Origin: Clostridia bacterium
GTDB lineage: Bacteria > Bacillota > Clostridia > Oscillospirales > Acutalibacteraceae
Assembly: GCA_017521925.1 (NCBI GenBank)
Contig: JAFXBG010000013.1
Location: 1 to 64,000, forward strand
Direction: 5' to 3'
DNA length: 64,000 nucleotides
Shown here: positions 1 through 12,606 of the stretch, one piece after another
How the letters are laid out: each line of letters begins with the position of its first letter
How positions within the stretch are numbered: position 1 is the first letter of the stretch
The notes under the pieces: model-generated
What the model was told of the DNA's origin: nothing
Seen by the model: the letters and a program-made list of their open reading frames with translations, nothing else
The model's database searches: none
Position numbers and translations under genes: made by a program

Positions 1-3000
1 GCCTGCTCTTGTGGGATCTGCGGGAGCTACAGCGGATTCGCCTTCAACTACTGTCTGAACGCTGAGGAGAGTGTTGTCATGATCTACGAACATTACAACG
101 TATGTCTTCTTAGCTTCTGTTGCAGGAACAGTTGTTGTGGGAGCATCTGTTGTTATCTCTGAAGGATCTGTTGCTACTGTTCCTTCTGTTTCGGGAGCAG
201 TTGTTGCTGTAGGCTCTATTTCGTCAGATGTCAAAGGATAAGTTTCGTCTGTTTCTGCGTAATATGAAAGAACCATTGTAGCGGGATCAAAACTCAGGGT
301 ATATACACCCTTAGGCACATAAAGCTTATCATTCATTTTACTGCCGTAATCACCCATCACAGCTGAGGTTGTATCAAAGCCCAGCCAACCGTTAGTACAA
401 TAACAGTTTAAATTACTATCCTTAACAATTACATAGCTTTCCTCTGTAAAGTTAACTGTAACCTTGCCGTTTACAAACTTATATTCACCAAGGTTTTCGA
501 AACCTAATCCTATTCCATAATCTGCTCCGTTGATATATCCTACCAGATAGAACTCTAAAATATCAGCAGAAGGCTCTGATGTTACGGGAGGTGTTTCAAC
601 AGGTGTATTATTAACCTGTATAACTGTCACATCAACCTGAGCTGATTTAGATACGTCAAAATCAGATTGTGCAATAACAGTAAGCTTATCTGATGTTTCG
701 TTTTCCGCAATTGACAAAACACCGTCTTCGCTTATTCTTGTATCAGAAGATTTATTGCCTGTTACGAACCAGATGACCGTCTGCGGAGGATTGTATAGGC
801 CGTAAACTACCGCATCAAAACTACACGTCTCACCACAAACACTGCTAACTACAGCAGGATTTATAACAACACCATTTACGATTGGTTCTACCTTAATAAT
901 ATTAATTATTACGCTTGCGGATTTTGTAGGGTCAGCTACCGATGTTGCAGTAACAGTAATTTCTTCAGCTTGTTCATTCGTTCCCACAGTTAAAATACCG
1001 CCAACGGAAATTTTGGTATTACTATCCGTATTTCCTGCTATAGTCCACTCAACTGATTGTGTCGGATTGTTTATACCATTGACACTCGCCGTAAGTAATA
1101 ACGATTTACCCTGTTGCAAAGAATTACTTATATTAATAATTGATACAGATTTCACATCAGTATCAAGATACAATTCGTGCCAACATTCATTTGGATTAAA
1201 AATGTATCCTGTTAATATATCTTTTGTAAGCTTCAGTTTATTAATATGTGAAGATACACTTTCAAAAGTAACACGCTGAACTTCTGTACCATTCAAAACA
1301 ACTGTATGTTCACCGTAGCAAATAAAATTACTTGAATGTGCACCATCGCTTGAGAGCTGCGATAAATCTCCGTTTATCATCATAGTACCATTGCTTAATT
1401 CATTATAAGAATCACTGTACGTACTTTGGGTATAAAAATCCCCTCCTATCTTTACCAGATCACGTTCATTAGTCATAATCAAATGACCTTCAGATGGTCC
1501 AAAAATCATCTCGCCATCATTTGTGGTTTCTTCATAGGTTTGTATCCTGTAATCCTCTGTTACTTCTAATGTTCCGCCATGAATATTCATCGTTCCGCCT
1601 GAATGATATAAATTGCCGTCTATTGTTAATTTTCCGTAATTTATATCCACCGATCCATCCATAGTTACATCGCCATTAATTACAACATTCTTTTTATTCA
1701 TATCCCATATGGAATTAATAATCAAATCATCCGCTGTAATATCAATATCCGAATCTATTTTATATATATTTAGATATCCGCTCCAAATAAGGCTACCGCC
1801 TTCAACAATCAAATTACTAAAACGCACGGTAGTTGAAGCAACATAAACATTGTGTGATCTGTCACCTGTGAAAATCACAGTATGATCGCTATCACCATAA
1901 AAATCACCGTAATTATAATTATCTTGATAAAAATCACCGCTAAGCTCAAATGTTCCCTTTGTCAATTCATTATGCCCTGTATTCTCAACGTAAAAATTCC
2001 CTCCTATCTTTACCAGATCACGTTCATTAGTCATAAACAAATGACCTTCTGACGGTCCAAAAATCATCTCGCCATCATTTGTGGTTTCTTCATAGGTTTG
2101 TATCCTGTAATCCTCTGTTACTTCTAATGTTCCGCCATGGATGTTCAGTGTTCCGCCTGAATGATATAAATTACCGTTAATCGTTAATTTTCCGTAATTT
2201 ATGTCTACCGATCCATCCATAGCTACATCGCCATTAATTACAACATTCTTTTTATTCATATCCCATATGGAATTAATAATCAAATCATCTGCTGTAATAT
2301 CAATATCCGAGTCTATTTTATATGTATTTAGATATCCGCTCCAAATAAGGCTACCGCTTTCAACAACCAAATTATTGAAATGCACGTTAGTTGAAGCAAT
2401 ATAAACATTATGTGATCTGTCACCTGCGAAAATCACAGTATGATCGTTGTTACTATAAAAATCACCGTAATCATCCTGATAAAAATCACCACTTAGCTCA
2501 AATGTTCCATTTGTCAGTTCATTGTAATTACTGTATGAACTTTGGATATAAAAATCTCCCCCTATCTTTACCATATCACGTTCATTATTCATAACCAAAT
2601 AACCTTGTGACGGTCCAAAAATCATCTCGCCATCATTTGTGGTTTCTTCATAGGTTTGTATCCTGTAATCCTTTGTTACCTTTAATGTTCCACCATGAAT
2701 GTTCAGTGTTCCGCCTGAATGATATAAATTACCGTTAATCGATAAATTACTGCCGTTTAAATCAAGCGTACCTCCTTTTAGATACAAGTCACCAAAAATA
2801 TTCAAATCATCTGATAATGTAAAACTGTCATCAATAGCACTATCACCTGAAACCATAAGATTATACGTAATATCATCACTATAAACTTCATCAACTGCTA
2901 TATTTGTAGGCGGATTTTCAAACATATGATCCTCGGTAATAGCATCACAATCATAGTCTAAAATCGCAAAATACCGATTATAATGTTTTTGAACTAATCC

Positions 3001-4290
3001 TTCCAGTTTACAGAAAATTGTCTTGTCAGTATCAATTAATCCCATAAAGTCGTTATATGTCTGTATGTTTTTGTCAGAGAAAGCATTTTTTATATTATTG
3101 AATATTCCATCAAACAACGCAGAAGAAATAAACCCTTTGACGCTCTCAGATGCATATGCCTGATACTTAAGATATCCTTTATACGCATTGATAAAAGCCT
3201 GAGCATTCTCTACTGTAGGATTAGATTCAAACGCACTTTTTTTAGTATAAACGGCTGATTTAGCGTAATTACCGATAGTGTATATCAATACTAACTTAAG
3301 ATTATTCTCAGAAATATCATCACTGTTAAATATCCAATTAAGGCCTTCTTTGTACACCTTTAATTCCTTAATAATTGTAGATGCATCTGTACACACAATT
3401 ATTTCCTCATATCTCTTTAAGGCTTCGTCGAAAAGAACTGTCATACCATGATTAAGCATAGTTCTTGTACCTTCACCAAGAGTCAGAGTTGCATAAGAGG
3501 ACTCGTACATGGCAATAACCTTATCTATTGCATTTACAAAATGAGTGTTGCTGCTACCGGTCTCTTTCAATTCCTTTAAAAAATCAATTCTTGCTTCGTC
3601 TGCTCTCTGAACTGATAAAGCTTTAGTTAAATTTTTATAGTACTGAGTCGCACTTTTTGATACTTTCTCAATATCACTGATCAAAGTTGAGTATTTCTTA
3701 AGTTCCTTTATAAAACCCCACTTCTCTGTTAACGCTTTAGACTCTTCCACTGTCATTGTTGCTAATATCTGATTGGTAGGACCTTTTACGTCAACATATT
3801 CGTTTGCAGCATAATCAATTACATCCTTGATTATCGCTTCTGTGAATTTTACGGTATTCTTTACATAATTACTTTCAAATTCTTCGGTCTGTCCATAATA
3901 GTTAAGAAAATCAATAACCAGAAGAACACATAGTTCTTCTTCCCAATTTGCCATACTAACAAAATCTGCACTTAAAGTCTTCTTTATATTCTGCCAATAC
4001 AAACTATTAAACATCATTAATTCATCGTCGACCAATTCTTCAGCTATCCGCTCATAGGCAAACTTATGTGTTAGTGCAATATTTATTTCTGGAAAACTAT
4101 GAGCAATACCCTCATTATCGATTATACCTTTAATAATATTGTCTGCAACATAAACATCTGAATCACTATATGGAAATATTGTTTCTGTTACCTCTTCTTC
4201 AGCATTGACTATAAACATACTAAAGTTCAAACCTGAAAAAACACTTAAGGTAATCAAAACCGATAAAAATAAACTCAATATCTTTTTCAT
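1..4290 (-). CDS. Giant secreted repeat protein with Ig-like and starch-binding-like modules (C-terminus beyond window)
   Basis: The frame stays open from an ATG at 4290 to the window edge, at least 1430 residues. The start follows a TTGGAGG ribosome site. Residues 1-31 are a signal peptide ending near VNA. About 450 helical residues follow, then repeats rich in GGT, HSGG and GDFY-type motifs (about 500-950). Two bacterial Ig-like domains follow at about 1000-1200, with typical VEWTIAGN and ADPTKSAS-like stretches. Next is a module beginning FYLVGYINGADYG, which resembles starch-binding modules of Ruminococcus amylases. A Thr/Pro linker precedes the start of an InlB-like strand repeat (VVMFVDHDNT). 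It is probably a surface or cellulosome-associated adhesin or scaffold; the missing end may hold a dockerin or cohesin. No catalytic domain was recognised. Confidence 0.75.
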   Translation of the reverse strand, partial: MKKILSLFLSVLITLSVFSGLNFSMFIVNAEEEVTETIFPYSDSDVYVADNIIKGIIDNEGIAHSFPEINIALTHKFAYERIAEELVDDELMMFNSLYWQNIKKTLSADFVSMANWEEELCVLLVIDFLNYYGQTEEFESNYVKNTVKFTEAIIKDVIDYAANEYVDVKGPTNQILATMTVEESKALTEKWGFIKELKKYSTLISDIEKVSKSATQYYKNLTKALSVQRADEARIDFLKELKETGSSNTHFVNAIDKVIAMYESSYATLTLGEGTRTMLNHGMTVLFDEALKRYEEIIVCTDASTIIKELKVYKEGLNWIFNSDDISENNLKLVLIYTIGNYAKSAVYTKKSAFESNPTVENAQAFINAYKGYLKYQAYASESVKGFISSALFDGIFNNIKNAFSDKNIQTYNDFMGLIDTDKTIFCKLEGLVQKHYNRYFAILDYDCDAITEDHMFENPPTNIAVDEVYSDDITYNLMVSGDSAIDDSFTLSDDLNIFGDLYLKGGTLDLNGSNLSINGNLYHSGGTLNIHGGTLKVTKDYRIQTYEETTNDGEMIFGPSQGYLVMNNERDMVKIGGDFYIQSSYSNYNELTNGTFELSGDFYQDDYGDFYSNNDHTVIFAGDRSHNVYIASTNVHFNNLVVESGSLIWSGYLNTYKIDSDIDITADDLIINSIWDMNKKNVVINGDVAMDGSVDINYGKLTINGNLYHSGGTLNIHGGTLEVTEDYRIQTYEETTNDGEMIFGPSEGHLFMTNERDLVKIGGNFYVENTGHNELTKGTFELSGDFYQDNYNYGDFYGDSDHTVIFTGDRSHNVYVASTTVRFSNLIVEGGSLIWSGYLNIYKIDSDIDITADDLIINSIWDMNKKNVVINGDVTMDGSVDINYGKLTIDGNLYHSGGTMNIHGGTLEVTEDYRIQTYEETTNDGEMIFGPSEGHLIMTNERDLVKIGGDFYTQSTYSDSYNELSNGTMMINGDLSQLSSDGAHSSNFICYGEHTVVLNGTEVQRVTFESVSSHINKLKLTKDILTGYIFNPNECWHELYLDTDVKSVSIINISNSLQQGKSLLLTASVNGINNPTQSVEWTIAGNTDSNTKISVGGILTVGTNEQAEEITVTATSVADPTKSASVIINIIKVEPIVNGVVINPAVVSSVCGETCSFDAVVYGLYNPPQTVIWFVTGNKSSDTRISEDGVLSIAENETSDKLTVIAQSDFDVSKSAQVDVTVIQVNNTPVETPPVTSEPSADILEFYLVGYINGADYGIGLGFENLGEYKFVNGKVTVNFTEESYVIVKDSNLNCYCTNGWLGFDTTSAVMGDYGSKMNDKLYVPKGVYTLSFDPATMVLSYYAETDETYPLTSDEIEPTATTAPETEGTVATDPSEITTDAPTTTVPATEAKKTYVVMFVDHDNTLLSVQTVVEGESAVAPADPTRAG
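1441..2745 (-). repeat. 558-bp tandem coding repeats (two full units plus a partial third)
   Basis: The same DNA string (cctatctttacca followed by tatcacg or gatcacg) recurs with its anchor at 1441, 1999 and about 2557, exactly 558 bp (186 codons) apart. Units 1 and 2 are nearly identical along their length. The third diverges after about 2745. Each unit encodes a motif series that includes IWDMNKKNVVINGDV and YHSGGT. Confidence 0.85.
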
Positions 4291-4510: not shown

Positions 4511-4539
4511 TTGATATTTTAAATAAGCTGTGCTACAAT
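4511..4539 (+). promoter_or_regulatory. Strong sigma-A promoter of the 43-residue peptide gene
   Basis: TTGATA (4511-4516), a 17-bp spacer and TACAAT (4534-4539) with an extended -10 TGC. The inferred transcription start is near 4546, about 24 nt before the ATG. Confidence 0.7.
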
Positions 4540-4569: not shown

Positions 4570-4701
4570 ATGAGCAATTATTCAAAACCTGAAATTGAAA
4601 TCATCACTTTCCTTACTCCCGATGTAATTGTTGCAAGCAACGGAAACGGCGGTTTCAACGGCGGAAACATTGAGCTCCCTGACCACGATTGGACAGATTA
4701 A
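4570..4701 (+). CDS. 43-residue peptide with IELPDHDW tail, possible modified-peptide precursor
   Basis: ATG at 4570 follows a GGAG site at 4558. An upstream in-frame ATG (4477) lies before the promoter and is not the start. The N-terminal half has the pattern KPEIEIITF..DVIVAS, then a Gly/Asn-rich stretch (NGNGGFNGG), then IELPDHDWTD. This leader-like half plus short Gly-rich tail is the shape of many small clostridial peptides of unknown or ribosomally-synthesised-peptide type, but no modification enzyme is adjacent. It has its own promoter and a strong terminator, so it is a monocistronic, probably well expressed gene. Its last residues match the tail of the next gene's product. Function unknown. 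Confidence 0.65.
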   Translation: MSNYSKPEIEIITFLTPDVIVASNGNGGFNGGNIELPDHDWTD

Positions 4702-4706
4702 CAACT

Positions 4707-4741
4707 ATGGGCACGCAATAGCCGTGCCCATTTGTTTTTTC
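4707..4741 (+). terminator. Intrinsic terminator after the peptide gene
   Basis: A perfect 9-bp stem, atgggcacg (4707-4715) with cgtgcccat (4723-4731), is followed by a T-rich tract. It ends the peptide transcript just before the dockerin gene, so that gene depends on read-through or an unseen promoter. Confidence 0.85.
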
Positions 4742-4767
4742 TAATTATCTTTCGGAGATGTAATTCT

Positions 4768-5520
4768 ATGAAACTTAATTCCAAAGTCTTTCTTATAACA
4801 GGTCTGACCCTGACTATTGTATTCTCTTCAATTGGATTTGCCACTCTTGCTACAAACAGCCGACTTGTGGGAGATGTTGATTCTGACGGAAGAGTAAGCA
4901 TAAAAGATGCCACCCGTATACAAAAGCACCTTGCTTTAATTGAAACTATAAATGATATTGATTCCGTGTATGCTGATGTTATCCGGGACGGAGAAATCAC
5001 CATAAAAGATGCTACTGCTATACAAAAGCATCTGGTTGGTCTGTTTAAGCTTCCTGATATTAACAACAAAGAAACCACCGCAGCAAATGACACATTACCT
5101 TCTGAAAGCACAAGCAGGATTCCCGCTTCAGACAAAAACGAACCAACCATTCAGCACTCAGTATTTACTACCGCGTCGTCCTGCACAGAAACTCAGACCA
5201 ATTCTTCTGAGCCTGCAGAAACAGTTTGTACAGATGCACTAGTTACTGACCCTGCTGAATCTTCAACCGGCGTTTTGCCTTCTTCCACTTCGGCAACAGG
5301 AACAGCTTGTACAGATGCACAAGTTACCGACCCTGCTGAATCTTCAACAAGCTTTTTGCCTTCTTCCACTTCGGCAACAGGAACCACTTGTACAGATGCA
5401 CAAGTTACCGACCCTGCTGAATCTTCAACCTGTAATACCACTGTACAGACAAATCCGACAGAAATCGTAAAACCCACCTTTAATAACGGAATCGAGCTTC
5501 CTGATCACGATTGGGAATAA
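4768..5520 (+). CDS. Secreted dockerin protein with Ser/Thr-rich repeats and IELPDHDW C-terminus
   Basis: The start is the ATG at 4768 behind CGGAG, not the earlier one at 4732, which lies inside the terminator. 250 residues. Residues 1-30 are a signal peptide. Residues 32-95 are a type I dockerin with two calcium-loop/helix halves (VGDVDSDGRVSIKDATRIQ; YADVIRDGEITIKDATAIQ). From about 110 to 230 the chain is Ser/Thr/Glu-rich with 27-residue repeats around CTDAQVTDPAESST. The last residues are NNGIELPDHDWE. Dockerins bind cohesins on scaffoldins, so the protein is probably docked outside the cell. There is no catalytic domain: it may be a linker, a decoy or a display protein for the C-terminal motif. 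Confidence 0.8.
   Translation: MKLNSKVFLITGLTLTIVFSSIGFATLATNSRLVGDVDSDGRVSIKDATRIQKHLALIETINDIDSVYADVIRDGEITIKDATAIQKHLVGLFKLPDINNKETTAANDTLPSESTSRIPASDKNEPTIQHSVFTTASSCTETQTNSSEPAETVCTDALVTDPAESSTGVLPSSTSATGTACTDAQVTDPAESSTSFLPSSTSATGTTCTDAQVTDPAESSTCNTTVQTNPTEIVKPTFNNGIELPDHDWE
5221..5430 (+). repeat. 81-bp tandem repeat in dockerin protein gene
   Basis: The string gaccctgctgaatcttcaac starts at 5248, 5329 and 5410, an exact 81-bp (27-codon) period. The repeats encode the Cys-containing Ser/Thr-rich spacer. Confidence 0.85.
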
Positions 5521-5621: not shown

Positions 5622-6797
5622 TTATCTTTTTGAGCCTATTTTTTCTAAAAGTTCTTTTTCGTTTCTGGCTTTCTGCATATTGACAGAGGCTATGGTTCTG
5701 ATATTTTTAAGTCCTGAGCGTTTAAATGCCTTGAAAAAGTGCACCACCCAACCTGCCGGCAACAAATATGGCTTGCCATTAAAGAAAGGATACATCCGCT
5801 TTAACTCTCTGTATGACGGAAAAATATGACTTAAAATAACAAACAGTTTGCCAAGTTTTCCTTTGCTCCTGATTGCCTGACGCACCTCGTTTTGTGCGAC
5901 ATCGTCTTTATTCATCAAACCGAAAACTCCGCCTTTAAAGGTATATCGGCAAAACTCATGGTAAACCGCCCGACTCATACTGCGTATCGGTTTTACGTCT
6001 GTACCAAACCATTGCTGACAAAGATAAAGCACAGAATCCAAAAATTCTTCCAGTTCACATTCTTTTAGGAGCTCACGTATCCTATTAAGGTCAAGCTTGT
6101 CCTTGTAACGGTTTAAGAACAAAGCAATATCAAGGTACATTCTTACCCCTGCGCCTGTGCCGTAGACGTGCTTTTCAATATGGCTTATGAGGTAACACAA
6201 ATGAAACTCCTCAGTAAATTCAAAGGTTAAGCCGTCTTTCTGCCTTGTATAATTCCAGAAATCAGCCAGATTATCAGATAGTCTGATTTTTTCAGAATTA
6301 AGTGTAGTATGGAACTCATAGTGTTCAGCTCCTTTTATATAAGAACATACCTCACCGCCGTCCATAATCTGATATCTGAAGCCTAATCTGCACATCAGAT
6401 TATGGATTTTCTCTCTGTCTTCTTCCCTGATAATAATATCAACATCTCCAAAGGTTCTAAGTTCAGGAACAGGGTAACACTCTTTTACTACCAGACCTTT
6501 GAAAATAATATGCTTTATGCCCTCAGAGTTTAACAGCTTAAGAATTCTGTTTGCAGAAAACTCTATCCGCACCAGTTGGATTACAGTTTTATCAAATACG
6601 TCGGCAAGTCTTTTCTCTGCACTGAGAATCTCTTTTTGGTCGTACTTATTAAGGATATACCCTGTAATTCCCAATACAGACTGAGCTTTCGCCAGCTCAT
6701 AAAGCTCAGAAGCATCATATTCAGTTGTGATTGCGGGAGATTTCCCGTTAACAAACGCTGAAAGAATTTCAATCAGCAATTTTTCGGTATTATTCAA
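5622..6797 (-). CDS. NTP_transf_5-like nucleotidyltransferase family protein
   Basis: 391 residues. A KG..V.K..YP.PE.R.FGDVDIII stretch (about 98-122) matches the nucleotidyltransferase core of the uncharacterised NTP_transf_5 family (PF14907), where G-D-x-D binds metal. The rest is helical, ending with a basic tail. It is the last gene of the polysaccharide operon, 75 bp after the polymerase gene. Members of this family occur in polysaccharide loci and in peptide-modification loci. The substrate is unknown; transfer of a nucleotide or a phosphosugar is inference. Confidence 0.75.
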   Translation of the reverse strand: MNNTEKLLIEILSAFVNGKSPAITTEYDASELYELAKAQSVLGITGYILNKYDQKEILSAEKRLADVFDKTVIQLVRIEFSANRILKLLNSEGIKHIIFKGLVVKECYPVPELRTFGDVDIIIREEDREKIHNLMCRLGFRYQIMDGGEVCSYIKGAEHYEFHTTLNSEKIRLSDNLADFWNYTRQKDGLTFEFTEEFHLCYLISHIEKHVYGTGAGVRMYLDIALFLNRYKDKLDLNRIRELLKECELEEFLDSVLYLCQQWFGTDVKPIRSMSRAVYHEFCRYTFKGGVFGLMNKDDVAQNEVRQAIRSKGKLGKLFVILSHIFPSYRELKRMYPFFNGKPYLLPAGWVVHFFKAFKRSGLKNIRTIASVNMQKARNEKELLEKIGSKR

Positions 6798-10491: not shown

Positions 10492-12606
10492 TCAGAAATT
10501 TTTACTGCCTGTTTTCTGAACAATCCGGTCAACACAATCACAGATTACCTTGTGATTTTCCTCAAACTGCTCTTTGCTCCATGAGTTTATCTCTTTTTCT
10601 CTTTCGCGTAAAAGAGAAATCTCACGGCTCATATTCTCAACGGGTCTGCTGCCGCTTACCTCGTTACGGAATGTTCTGGAAAGAATAGCACAGGTAGAGC
10701 CCAGTCTCTTATGCTCACCCAGTATGTAGTCGCTCTTAAGCTGACCCTCGCCGATTTTGGCAACACCGCCAAAACCGTATGGAAGTCCTTTTGCCTTGAA
10801 TTTTTCACACAACTTTTCGACCGTACCGTCACACAGAAGCTCAAACATAAATTTCATATTATAGCTTAAGTGCAAGTCATTAAGTCCTATGTACACTTCG
10901 GTTATTCCGTCAAGGCTGAGAATCTCATCTGCATTCTCAACGGCTTCTGCGGTTTCAAACAAAAGCACCGTAGGCACTCTGCCGCCTACACAATTAAGGA
11001 AAAATCTTACCTCGTCGGCAGTTTTGAAATACGGTAGCATAATAATGTCTGCACCGTCATTAATAATTCTGTCAATTTCAGGCTTAAGTCCTTTATGCAC
11101 AGGATTACACCTTACAAGAAGCTGTGCCTTCTTAATAACTGCTCTCAGCTTCTTGACATCATCAAGACCGGAGTGAGACACAACCGTATCCAGATGCCCC
11201 TGACGCTCATATTTTCCTAAAATCTCCAGGTCAAGGAAAATCCTGTCCACACCGGATGCTTCTGCAGTTTTTGCCTGTTCAGGGTCTGCAGTAAGGTACA
11301 TAAACTTCATTTTGCTGTCGTTTTTACCCAACAGCTTGCAATAGTATTCATATATGGTATTCATTCTCATAGTACGCGAAAAATATCTCTCTACTCTTAA
11401 TCTGCCGTTTTCGGCATATGTATTTCTTAATTTATAGTCCTTCATAAGCTCTGTCATTTTATCCAGCAAAGCTTTTTCATCCTTTGAAGGAACAAGTGCA
11501 CCGCTTATGCCTTCTTCAATTACCTCGCTGGGGCCCGGGACATCTGTTGTAATTACAGGTATCTTCATGGCCATAGCCTCCTGAAGCACCATTGAAAAAC
11601 CTTCTCTGTAAGTAGGATGCACCAGAACATCACAGGCAGACATATACTTTACTACCTCAGAAGGATTAACATAATCTGTAAAAATAACACTCTCGTTGCT
11701 TCTTGCCCATTTTATCAGGTCCTCGTCAGGTGAGTGGGTTTTATCTTCCATACCAATAAGCAAAAGCCTGGTGCCTTTTTGTGTATGAACAAGTGCACGA
11801 TAAGCGCCTAGAAGCTCATTAATACCTTTGTCCTTATTCAGTCGTCCGCAAAACCCAAATACAAACTCGTTTTCAGATATTCCGAGTTTTCCCCTTATTT
11901 CCTGATTATAACTTTCTTTTAGGTTGATATCAAAAATATTAAAGTCAACGCCTATTGTACCGCCTTTGCCTACTACTGAAATCTTACTCTCCTTACAAAG
12001 CTTTTCTTTCAGTGCAAACTCTCTGTTTTTACCGCTTACGGCAAAAATATCTGTGGCACCCTTACATATATATTTCTCAATGACTTTTAAAAATCTTCGC
12101 TCAATTCCTTTCACACTGACATAGCGGATACCCCACTGCCCATAAACCCTTACGGGGATTTTTCTGAAATTACGGGCAAGGGTACAGCACAATGCAGCAT
12201 TAGGTGTTGTGTAGTGGATAATATCAAATTCATTTTTTTTGAAAAATCTGTTTAAGGCAGCACCGCCCTTAATAACAGGAAAAACCTTGACACCTCTATC
12301 GATAGGCATCTGCACAACATTTGCAAACTTCTGATGTTTTTCTGCAAAACCTTCATCCATAACACCACAGATAACGGTAACTTCAAAACCATTTGCAGCC
12401 AGAAACTCTGCAAGGTCTGACATAAACCAATCAAAGGTTTTTGAAATAGTTGTAACCATACATATTCTGGTAGGACGCAGTCCTGCGGTGTCTTTGCAAA
12501 TATTTTCTGCAACTTCTGCTTTTGAACGCACTTCGGCTACAGGCTTTTGTATGCTGTTTTCATTATCCCTATTAATGTTTCGGGAATAAGATTCCTGTTT
12601 TGCCAT
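10492..12606 (-). CDS. Fusion: GT4 glycosyltransferase plus HpcH/HpaI aldolase-like domain
   Basis: 704 residues in one uninterrupted frame. Residues 46-428 form a GT4 transferase with the donor motif REGFSMVLQEA (E335 and E343 of EX7E). Residues 433-640 look like an HpcH/HpaI aldolase or citrate-lyase beta-like barrel: LLVRCNP (R499), LLFETAEAVENADEI (E551) and VYIGLNDLHL (D577), the last two matching the metal-binding Glu and Asp of the family. It is the first gene of the operon, with an AAGGCGG site before the ATG. HpcH enzymes make or split 2-oxo acids, so the fusion may couple glycan assembly to a keto-acid substituent or sugar acid; that link is inference. Confidence 0.8.
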   Translation of the reverse strand: MAKQESYSRNINRDNENSIQKPVAEVRSKAEVAENICKDTAGLRPTRICMVTTISKTFDWFMSDLAEFLAANGFEVTVICGVMDEGFAEKHQKFANVVQMPIDRGVKVFPVIKGGAALNRFFKKNEFDIIHYTTPNAALCCTLARNFRKIPVRVYGQWGIRYVSVKGIERRFLKVIEKYICKGATDIFAVSGKNREFALKEKLCKESKISVVGKGGTIGVDFNIFDINLKESYNQEIRGKLGISENEFVFGFCGRLNKDKGINELLGAYRALVHTQKGTRLLLIGMEDKTHSPDEDLIKWARSNESVIFTDYVNPSEVVKYMSACDVLVHPTYREGFSMVLQEAMAMKIPVITTDVPGPSEVIEEGISGALVPSKDEKALLDKMTELMKDYKLRNTYAENGRLRVERYFSRTMRMNTIYEYYCKLLGKNDSKMKFMYLTADPEQAKTAEASGVDRIFLDLEILGKYERQGHLDTVVSHSGLDDVKKLRAVIKKAQLLVRCNPVHKGLKPEIDRIINDGADIIMLPYFKTADEVRFFLNCVGGRVPTVLLFETAEAVENADEILSLDGITEVYIGLNDLHLSYNMKFMFELLCDGTVEKLCEKFKAKGLPYGFGGVAKIGEGQLKSDYILGEHKRLGSTCAILSRTFRNEVSGSRPVENMSREISLLREREKEINSWSKEQFEENHKVICDCVDRIVQKTGSKNF

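Follow-up and report, generated by a model that had tools for sequence, protein, structure and literature searches.

A C-terminal octapeptide common to adjacent peptide and dockerin genes points to an undescribed shared-tag system in Ruminococcus-related gut and rumen bacteria

A peptide gene and a dockerin gene with the same ending

Why should a small peptide and the dockerin protein encoded next to it end in the same eight amino acids? This question is raised by a stretch of 64,000 nucleotides from a Clostridia bacterium (contig JAFXBG010000013.1, positions 1 to 64,000; the whole stretch is called the window). The first-pass annotation of this DNA had claimed that two adjacent genes end in IELPDHDW, and this was borne out, the octapeptide being followed by TD in the peptide and by E in the dockerin protein. 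The features of the region are listed with their window positions.

4511..4539, + strand: promoter-like site TTGATA-17-TACAAT with TG before the second hexamer, upstream of the peptide gene
4570..4701, + strand: ORF of the 43-aa leader peptide, product MSNYSKPEIEIITFLTPDVIVASNGNGGFNGGNIELPDHDWTD, consisting of a leader-like part YSKPEIEIITFLTPDVIVAS, a Gly-rich linker and the C-terminal tail IELPDHDWTD
4669..4692, + strand: octapeptide codons, peptide copy, DNA ATTGAGCTCCCTGACCACGATTGG
4707..4731, + strand: terminator-like hairpin between the peptide and dockerin genes (consensus match only)
4768..5520, + strand: ORF of the 250-aa dockerin protein, C-terminal end ...TEIVKPTFNNGIELPDHDWE, with a hydrophobic signal-like N-terminus, a type I dockerin, Ser/Thr-rich repeats and the tail IELPDHDWE
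5491..5514, + strand: octapeptide codons, dockerin copy, DNA ATCGAGCTTCCTGATCACGATTGG
5622..6797, - strand: NTP_transf_5 (PF14907) nucleotidyltransferase (Pfam match), in a polysaccharide locus

The earlier assignment of the 250-aa protein to the dockerins was confirmed by Pfam (PF00404, E 5e-10, residues 35-89), and the domain qualifies as a type I dockerin. No orthologue of this protein came to light. Direct comparison of the two octapeptide-coding sequences showed, as annotated, three differences in 24 bases, all at third codon positions and all synonymous, which supports the view that the tail is kept as protein while the DNA differs. The statement that no other part of the two proteins is alike holds for the most part, except for a short resemblance upstream of the octapeptide that is visible by eye (GGFNGGN-IELPDHDW versus PTFNNG-IELPDHDW).

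Within the 1.41 Mb assembly LPDHDW is encoded twice, both times in the window pair, although a further copy could be missing from an assembly that is 72.6% complete. The degenerate pattern ELP[D/E]xxW found the same two copies alone in the assembly, and the reversed-pattern control gave 0. Among 161 genus genomes IELPDx[D/E]W was found in the window's own genome and in none of the other 160. The octapeptide is not scattered over many unrelated places or genomes, which the first-pass annotation had named as speaking against a tag; it is confined to a single genome of the 161.

The window locus is atypical in that a large secreted gene lies upstream on the opposite strand and the terminator-like hairpin parts the peptide gene from the dockerin gene. 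Because the promoter-like site and the hairpin flank it, the peptide gene may be a transcription unit of its own; promoter-like sites, with 4 on both strands of the region against 3.9 expected, are no commoner than in shuffled sequences and are a weak signal. The upstream gene (1-4290, - strand) runs divergently from the peptide gene and is truncated by the end of the contig; its secreted-like product is 1430 aa long or longer and contains internal repeats that closely resemble one another. Further downstream, a 704-aa ORF (10492-12606, - strand) combines a glycosyltransferase of GT4 type and an aldolase domain of the HpcH/HpaI kind.

The leader peptide belongs to a large family

With the 43-aa peptide as query, matches at E<=1, many of them weak, came from 54 of 300 family genomes. 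An alignment of 14 members of the short-peptide family has invariant P7, D18 and S23, and the HMM built from it finds members (E<=0.1) in 131 of the 161 genus genomes, with up to 14 hits per genome. The common part reads about [YF]xx[PT]x[IL]ExxxFxxxDVIxxS, and the remainder is variable and often acidic. Within the first 16 aa, [YF]xx[PT]x[ILVMFA] is present in 87 of 114 peptides, in 65 of them with P. Pfam and NCBIfam returned no family worth naming for the members scanned; the peptide family is large and unnamed in these two libraries.

In the fetched loci a same-strand gene of more than 250 aa precedes 76 of 119 peptide genes within 250 bases, with a gap of at most 25 bases in 60 of the 76. 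Many of these large upstream proteins end in a common domain (...YSALDY..LVKALYxYNQAANAYF), and some contain starch-binding or amylase domains. The common domain lies just upstream of leader peptides, for example at L125:5386-5730 (+), at L230:6988-7332 (-) and in relatives (numbers with L and G are our labels for loci and genomes). It is unannotated: six examples gave 0 Pfam families at E<=0.1, and one example gave no NCBIfam family.

Matching tails recur in loci of relatives

ELP-type tails were first noticed on dockerin and lipoprotein-like proteins in a screen of ORF ends around peptide loci. The tail survey comprises 148 loci, with 59 PqqD loci among those fetched; the loci are the top-ranked peptide and PqqD hits and no random draw, and fractions derived from them are not genus-wide. 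Mini-dockerins are proteins of at most 270 aa with a dockerin hit, and the Ser-rich class comprises signal-like proteins of 110-270 aa with at least 13% Ser. Tail residues play no part in these ORF classes, but the classes were defined with the first examples already known, and tagged loci supplied both the dockerin and the PqqD seeds. The survey excludes L201, L259 and sequence duplicates; a few mis-called ORFs (e.g., in L252 and L222) were kept in the classes.

The motif E[LMI]P was found in the last 14 residues of 29 of 40 mini-dockerins, 16 of 25 Ser-rich secreted proteins and 22 of 114 leader peptides, compared with 9 of 1286 pooled controls (other secreted ORFs 4/304, large dockerin proteins 1/34, enzymes 0/163, other ORFs 4/785). 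Fisher p-values against the pooled controls are 1e-42, 1e-24 and 2e-18, respectively, and are too small, as related genomes are not independent. In shuffled peptide tails the motif occurred 2.5 times on average and at most 8 times in 2000 rounds, versus the 22 peptides observed.

The tails also match within loci. Permuting the loci retains the overall motif and breaks the local pairing; by this comparison the mean similarity of dockerin and Ser-rich tails is 35.1 within the locus versus 27.3 after permutation (14 loci, p=1e-4, which is the smallest value this test can give), that of peptide and dockerin tails 22.4 versus 17.6 (27 loci, the window included, p=1e-4) and that of peptide and Ser-rich tails 19.1 versus 16.3 (14 loci, p=0.027). 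A tagged dockerin or Ser-rich protein is also present in 10 of the 22 loci with a motif-bearing peptide. An early, looser test of every peptide against all secreted neighbours, with loose gene calls and classes, was near chance (7 of 86 at p<0.05).

Three-way matches were found as well. In L155 the peptide DDPIELPFVPAK, the dockerin protein NKPIELPFVPAK and the lipoprotein-like protein GKPIELPFVPAQ have matching tails, and no PqqD, S24/S26 or NTP_transf_5 gene was found within 13 kb. The three tails also match in L211 and, more loosely, in L230. Clearest of all is L241 (G452 contig 4), where the three carriers each read DELPFVPA[NRD]. Its genes, all on the - strand, are arranged as follows.

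L241, - strand, start: 542-aa secreted-like protein, peptide, lipoprotein-like protein, dockerin protein
L241, - strand, after the dockerin protein: PqqD (PF05402), S24/S26 (PF00717, just under the cut-off), NTP_transf_5 (PF14907)
L241, - strand, carrier tails: peptide ..TSDPDELPFVPAN; lipoprotein-like protein ..TTDEDELPFVPAD; dockerin protein ..TRDPDELPFVPAR

The L241 dockerin is a partial match to PF00404 (E 5e-6); type I dockerins (PF00404) are also present in L125, L155, L170, L211 and L230.

The earlier idea of a tag common to the peptide and surface proteins holds in so far as tails are shared in other loci; only 22 of the 114 peptides carry the motif. Likewise, C-terminal sharing recurs, but the conserved part is xE[L/M/I]P and not the octapeptide. 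The IELPDHDW pair is a local form of a recurrent pattern.

Further tails were seen beside this motif. Some loci (the second set of L170, and L238 and L261) have other tails, which differ from each other. They form a third kind of tail set, in which lipoprotein-like proteins end in [AV]EVN[FI]NDL and mini-dockerins in [DE]GWG..[IV]F[KQ]P; two peptides of L154, a locus from another genome, end in NDVNDLINNKP and DPDGWEEQINKP. An internal motif, E-x-E-[IV]-[ILM], was considered and found too rare to judge. A membrane-protein-like gene of the tag clusters has an acidic end [IV]DLV[MI] (L216:6363-7043 (+), L230:5651-6331 (-), L236:3899-4603 (+)), and none of these three gave a Pfam match over the cut-off.

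A nine-residue tail is always C-terminal

The selection of loci by peptide or PqqD was avoided by searching the DNA of 84,980 species genomes for stretches that code for DEYELPFIP. This yielded 34 copies in 32 stretches. Each copy lies in frame within an ORF, and in all 34 the motif is C-terminal, with no more than 1-3 residues behind it. The copies are encoded by 33 different DNA versions, so that the tail persists at the protein level as its DNA diverges. The carriers are 14 dockerin proteins, one leader peptide (L271, at the stretch end) and 19 other ORFs; 17 of the latter contain at least 13% Ser, 14 show a loose lipobox pattern (L263 doubtful) and two are cut at the stretch end. Of the 32 stretches, 18 contain a hit to a leader, PqqD, NTP_transf_5 or S24/S26, the one in L271 being the tagged peptide itself; the other 14 stretches, each at most 8 kb long, gave no hit to any of the four.

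Enzyme genes near the tagged carriers

The first-pass annotation had suggested looking for co-occurrence with one enzyme family. PqqD, S24/S26 and NTP_transf_5 genes are indeed often near, but the window's own assembly (72.6% complete) contains no PqqD over the threshold. PqqD is present in six of six genus genomes queried, including the four with the closest NTP_transf_5 homologue. A tagged dockerin or a tagged Ser-rich protein is present in 35 loci, most of them selected by PqqD; of the 35, 27 contain PqqD, 14 S24/S26, 13 NTP_transf_5 and 24 a leader peptide. The linkage is weaker among the 12 tagged loci chosen by peptide and not by PqqD, 5 of which have a called PqqD and 3 a called NTP_transf_5; some PqqD misses are technical, as L142 and L262 are one contig with PqqD called in L262 alone.

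The NTP_transf_5 gene of the window itself was considered as partner of the tag and is an unlikely one. Its homologues sit in polysaccharide loci without a peptide-dockerin pair: neither a peptide nor a dockerin adjoins those of G325, G371 and G367, and that of G383 has other secreted genes alongside, one ending dockerin-like. The window gene is probably outside the tag system.

A second cluster type (L304, L306, L308, L309, L246-L251) combines a repeat protein with dockerin, an HprK-like protein, PqqD, an ABC exporter and NTP_transf_5, with a leader peptide in 8 of the 10 loci. It occurs in genomes that are near the window's by NTP_transf_5. Its 10 dockerin proteins, 8 with their peptide, show tail sharing in 0 of 8 pairs.

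Comparison with known systems

Leader, PqqD and nucleotidyltransferase resemble the tailoring part of lasso-peptide biosynthesis. According to PMC10368454, lasso leaders need Tyr-17, Pro-14 and Leu-12 for B1. In tailored lasso peptides the kinase K phosphorylates the C-terminal Ser and the nucleotidyltransferase N, which in some cases forms a fusion with the B2 protein, adds hexose(s) (PMC8498205). The clusters described here are like the lasso sets with K and N (paeninodin, pseudomycoidin) in the YxxPxL-like leader, the separate PqqD-family protein (PF05402, in L125, L241 and L211), the nucleotidyltransferase fused in some loci to a peptidase-like part and, in the second cluster type, the HPr-kinase-like protein. 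The best NCBIfam model for PqqD is lasso_PqqD_Strm (E 6.7e-9, below the cut-off). S24/S26 and NTP_transf_5 form a single ORF in eight loci (L212, L217, L222, L223, L225, L229, L231, L236). Because the S24/S26 protein replaces B2 in this fusion, it may be the leader peptidase.

There are also differences. Pfam detected no lasso cyclase and no B2 transglutaminase-like peptidase in L125 (five proteins and part of the large one) or L241 (10 ORFs); an S24/S26 protein is present instead. The invariant Ser of the window peptide lies 19 residues after Tyr, versus 15 for the lasso Thr-2, and if the core starts GNGGFNGGNIE (an assumed cleavage site) it has no Asp/Glu at positions 7-9. Unlike in lasso sets, the tags are repeated on exported dockerin and lipoprotein-like proteins. 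RiPPs in the wide sense combine a ribosomal precursor that has a recognition leader with an RRE protein and a modifying enzyme; candidate genes for all of these co-occur in several loci.

With SynChlorMet ScmC and HprK-related kinase A (TIGR04249, TIGR04352) there is a likeness in that an HprK-like protein lies downstream of a peptide of the family in L058, L059, L062 and L064 (scores below the cut-off), whereas HprK was called in merely 1 of the 35 tag loci. The tagged mini-dockerins match the type I dockerin (PF00404) of cellulosome and amylosome dockerin-cohesin pairs, but are mostly 107-135 aa long, too short for a further catalytic module, and have a short conserved tail after the dockerin. 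Sortase substrates have an LPXTG motif, a hydrophobic segment and a positive tail. The tagged proteins share with them a C-terminal Leu-Pro motif, but are not sortase substrates by these features, as the tags lack TG, the hydrophobic span and the positive end; in the window 6 (peptide) and 5 (dockerin) residues follow ELP, and 1-3 residues follow DEYELPFIP, with no hydrophobic segment in either case.

What could read the tail?

A shared functional C-terminal tag is well supported; its reader we infer. Our favoured reading, a tentative one that falls somewhat short of probable, is that the tail is the C-terminal recognition tag of a peptide/surface-display system read by the lasso-like enzyme set. 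One partner would read all three carriers, the small leader peptide, the mini-dockerin and the Ser-rich lipoprotein. The mini-dockerin could plug the tag into cohesin scaffolds, and the Ser-rich lipoprotein would hold it at the membrane. The likeliest partner would be the often co-encoded lasso-like set, within which recognition would fall to PqqD, leader cleavage to the S24/S26 protein and alteration of the C-terminal region to NTP_transf_5. The YxxPxL-like leader of the peptide would recruit PqqD. The common tail of the exported carriers, YELPF[I/V], repeats the leader's Y-x-x-P-x-[I/L/V] spacing and might recruit PqqD directly, as a mimic of RRE binding; [YFW]E[LMI]Px[ILV] ends 21 of 40 mini-dockerins, is found in 0 of 114 peptide tails, and IELPDHDW does not fit YxxPx[ILV] either. 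With a peptide that is presumably exported too, the outcome would be a single C-terminal epitope, probably modified, presented in free form as well as on scaffold and membrane. Against an enzyme as reader it has to be said that the dockerin and lipoprotein-like proteins appear to take the Sec route and lack such a leader, which may put them out of reach of cytoplasmic enzymes. Also counting against the favoured reading are the small share of motif-bearing peptides, the near-chance early test, the weaker enzyme linkage in loci chosen by peptide (none of the enzymes in L155), the 14 stretches that gave no hit, the loci with other tails and the lack of a PqqD over the threshold in the window's assembly. 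The fuller version, a locus-matched C-terminal motif read and perhaps altered by a cyclase-free lasso-like set, with a RiPP-type product both displayed and released, is possible but on the doubtful side.

A serious rival to the enzyme reader is an extracellular receptor of which the tail is a plain ligand, the mini-dockerin and the lipoprotein being adaptors that bring the receptor-bearing protein to scaffold or membrane. The peptide would compete for or prime the site, and a candidate for the receptor would be the unannotated domain at the C-terminus of many large upstream proteins. We regard both the adaptor role and this candidate as doubtful, if still realistic. That one tail sits on carriers with two different anchors agrees with a receptor, as does the large same-strand gene in front of 76 of 119 peptides, many of its products with the common C-terminal domain and some with starch-binding or amylase domains. 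The nearby cytoplasmic PqqD and NTP_transf_5 genes are left unexplained, however, and the window pair has no large same-strand gene upstream.

Unlikely is a third explanation, by which small exported proteins use these C-terminal tails as signals for sorting or processing (e.g., for a carboxy-terminal protease or a quality-control factor), unlinked to the peptide system. The 1-3 residues after the motif in 34 of 34 DEYELPFIP copies and the fact that 33 of the 34 carriers are not peptides would suit such a signal, but the motif is rare in the other secreted ORFs (4/304) and the large dockerin proteins (1/34) of the same loci, and the tails vary between loci yet match within them. Quite improbable is a local copy, in which the window's tail was copied between peptide and dockerin gene without function: the octapeptide does occur in this one genome alone, but 3 of 3 differences are synonymous and tails of other sequence are shared in the same way elsewhere. 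Chance resemblance of the two C-termini, in favour of which nothing was found, is hardly conceivable when two neighbouring C-termini agree in all eight residues and the assembly has the octapeptide at no other place.

Meaning of the shared tail

Returning to the favoured reading of a tag recognized by the lasso-like set, the parts are of known kinds; what is undescribed, as far as our searches go, is that they occur together with a C-terminus that exported anchors share and that is matched locus by locus: in the open-licence papers searched, none was found with both PqqD and dockerin or with the tail strings, and matches for dockerin plus RiPP look unrelated. Peptide-modification pathways have so far been known to make free natural products, and cellulosomes to assemble enzymes. 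In Ruminococcus-related gut and rumen bacteria the tails of peptide, docking protein and lipoprotein point to an undescribed shared-tag system. A testable prediction is at hand in the nine-residue C-terminus that marks carriers across many genomes, and a possible role is suggested for NTP_transf_5 (PF14907), which Pfam terms uncharacterised. If the tag links peptide modification and docking, it would be a new way for fibre and starch degraders of gut and rumen to label or organise their surface.
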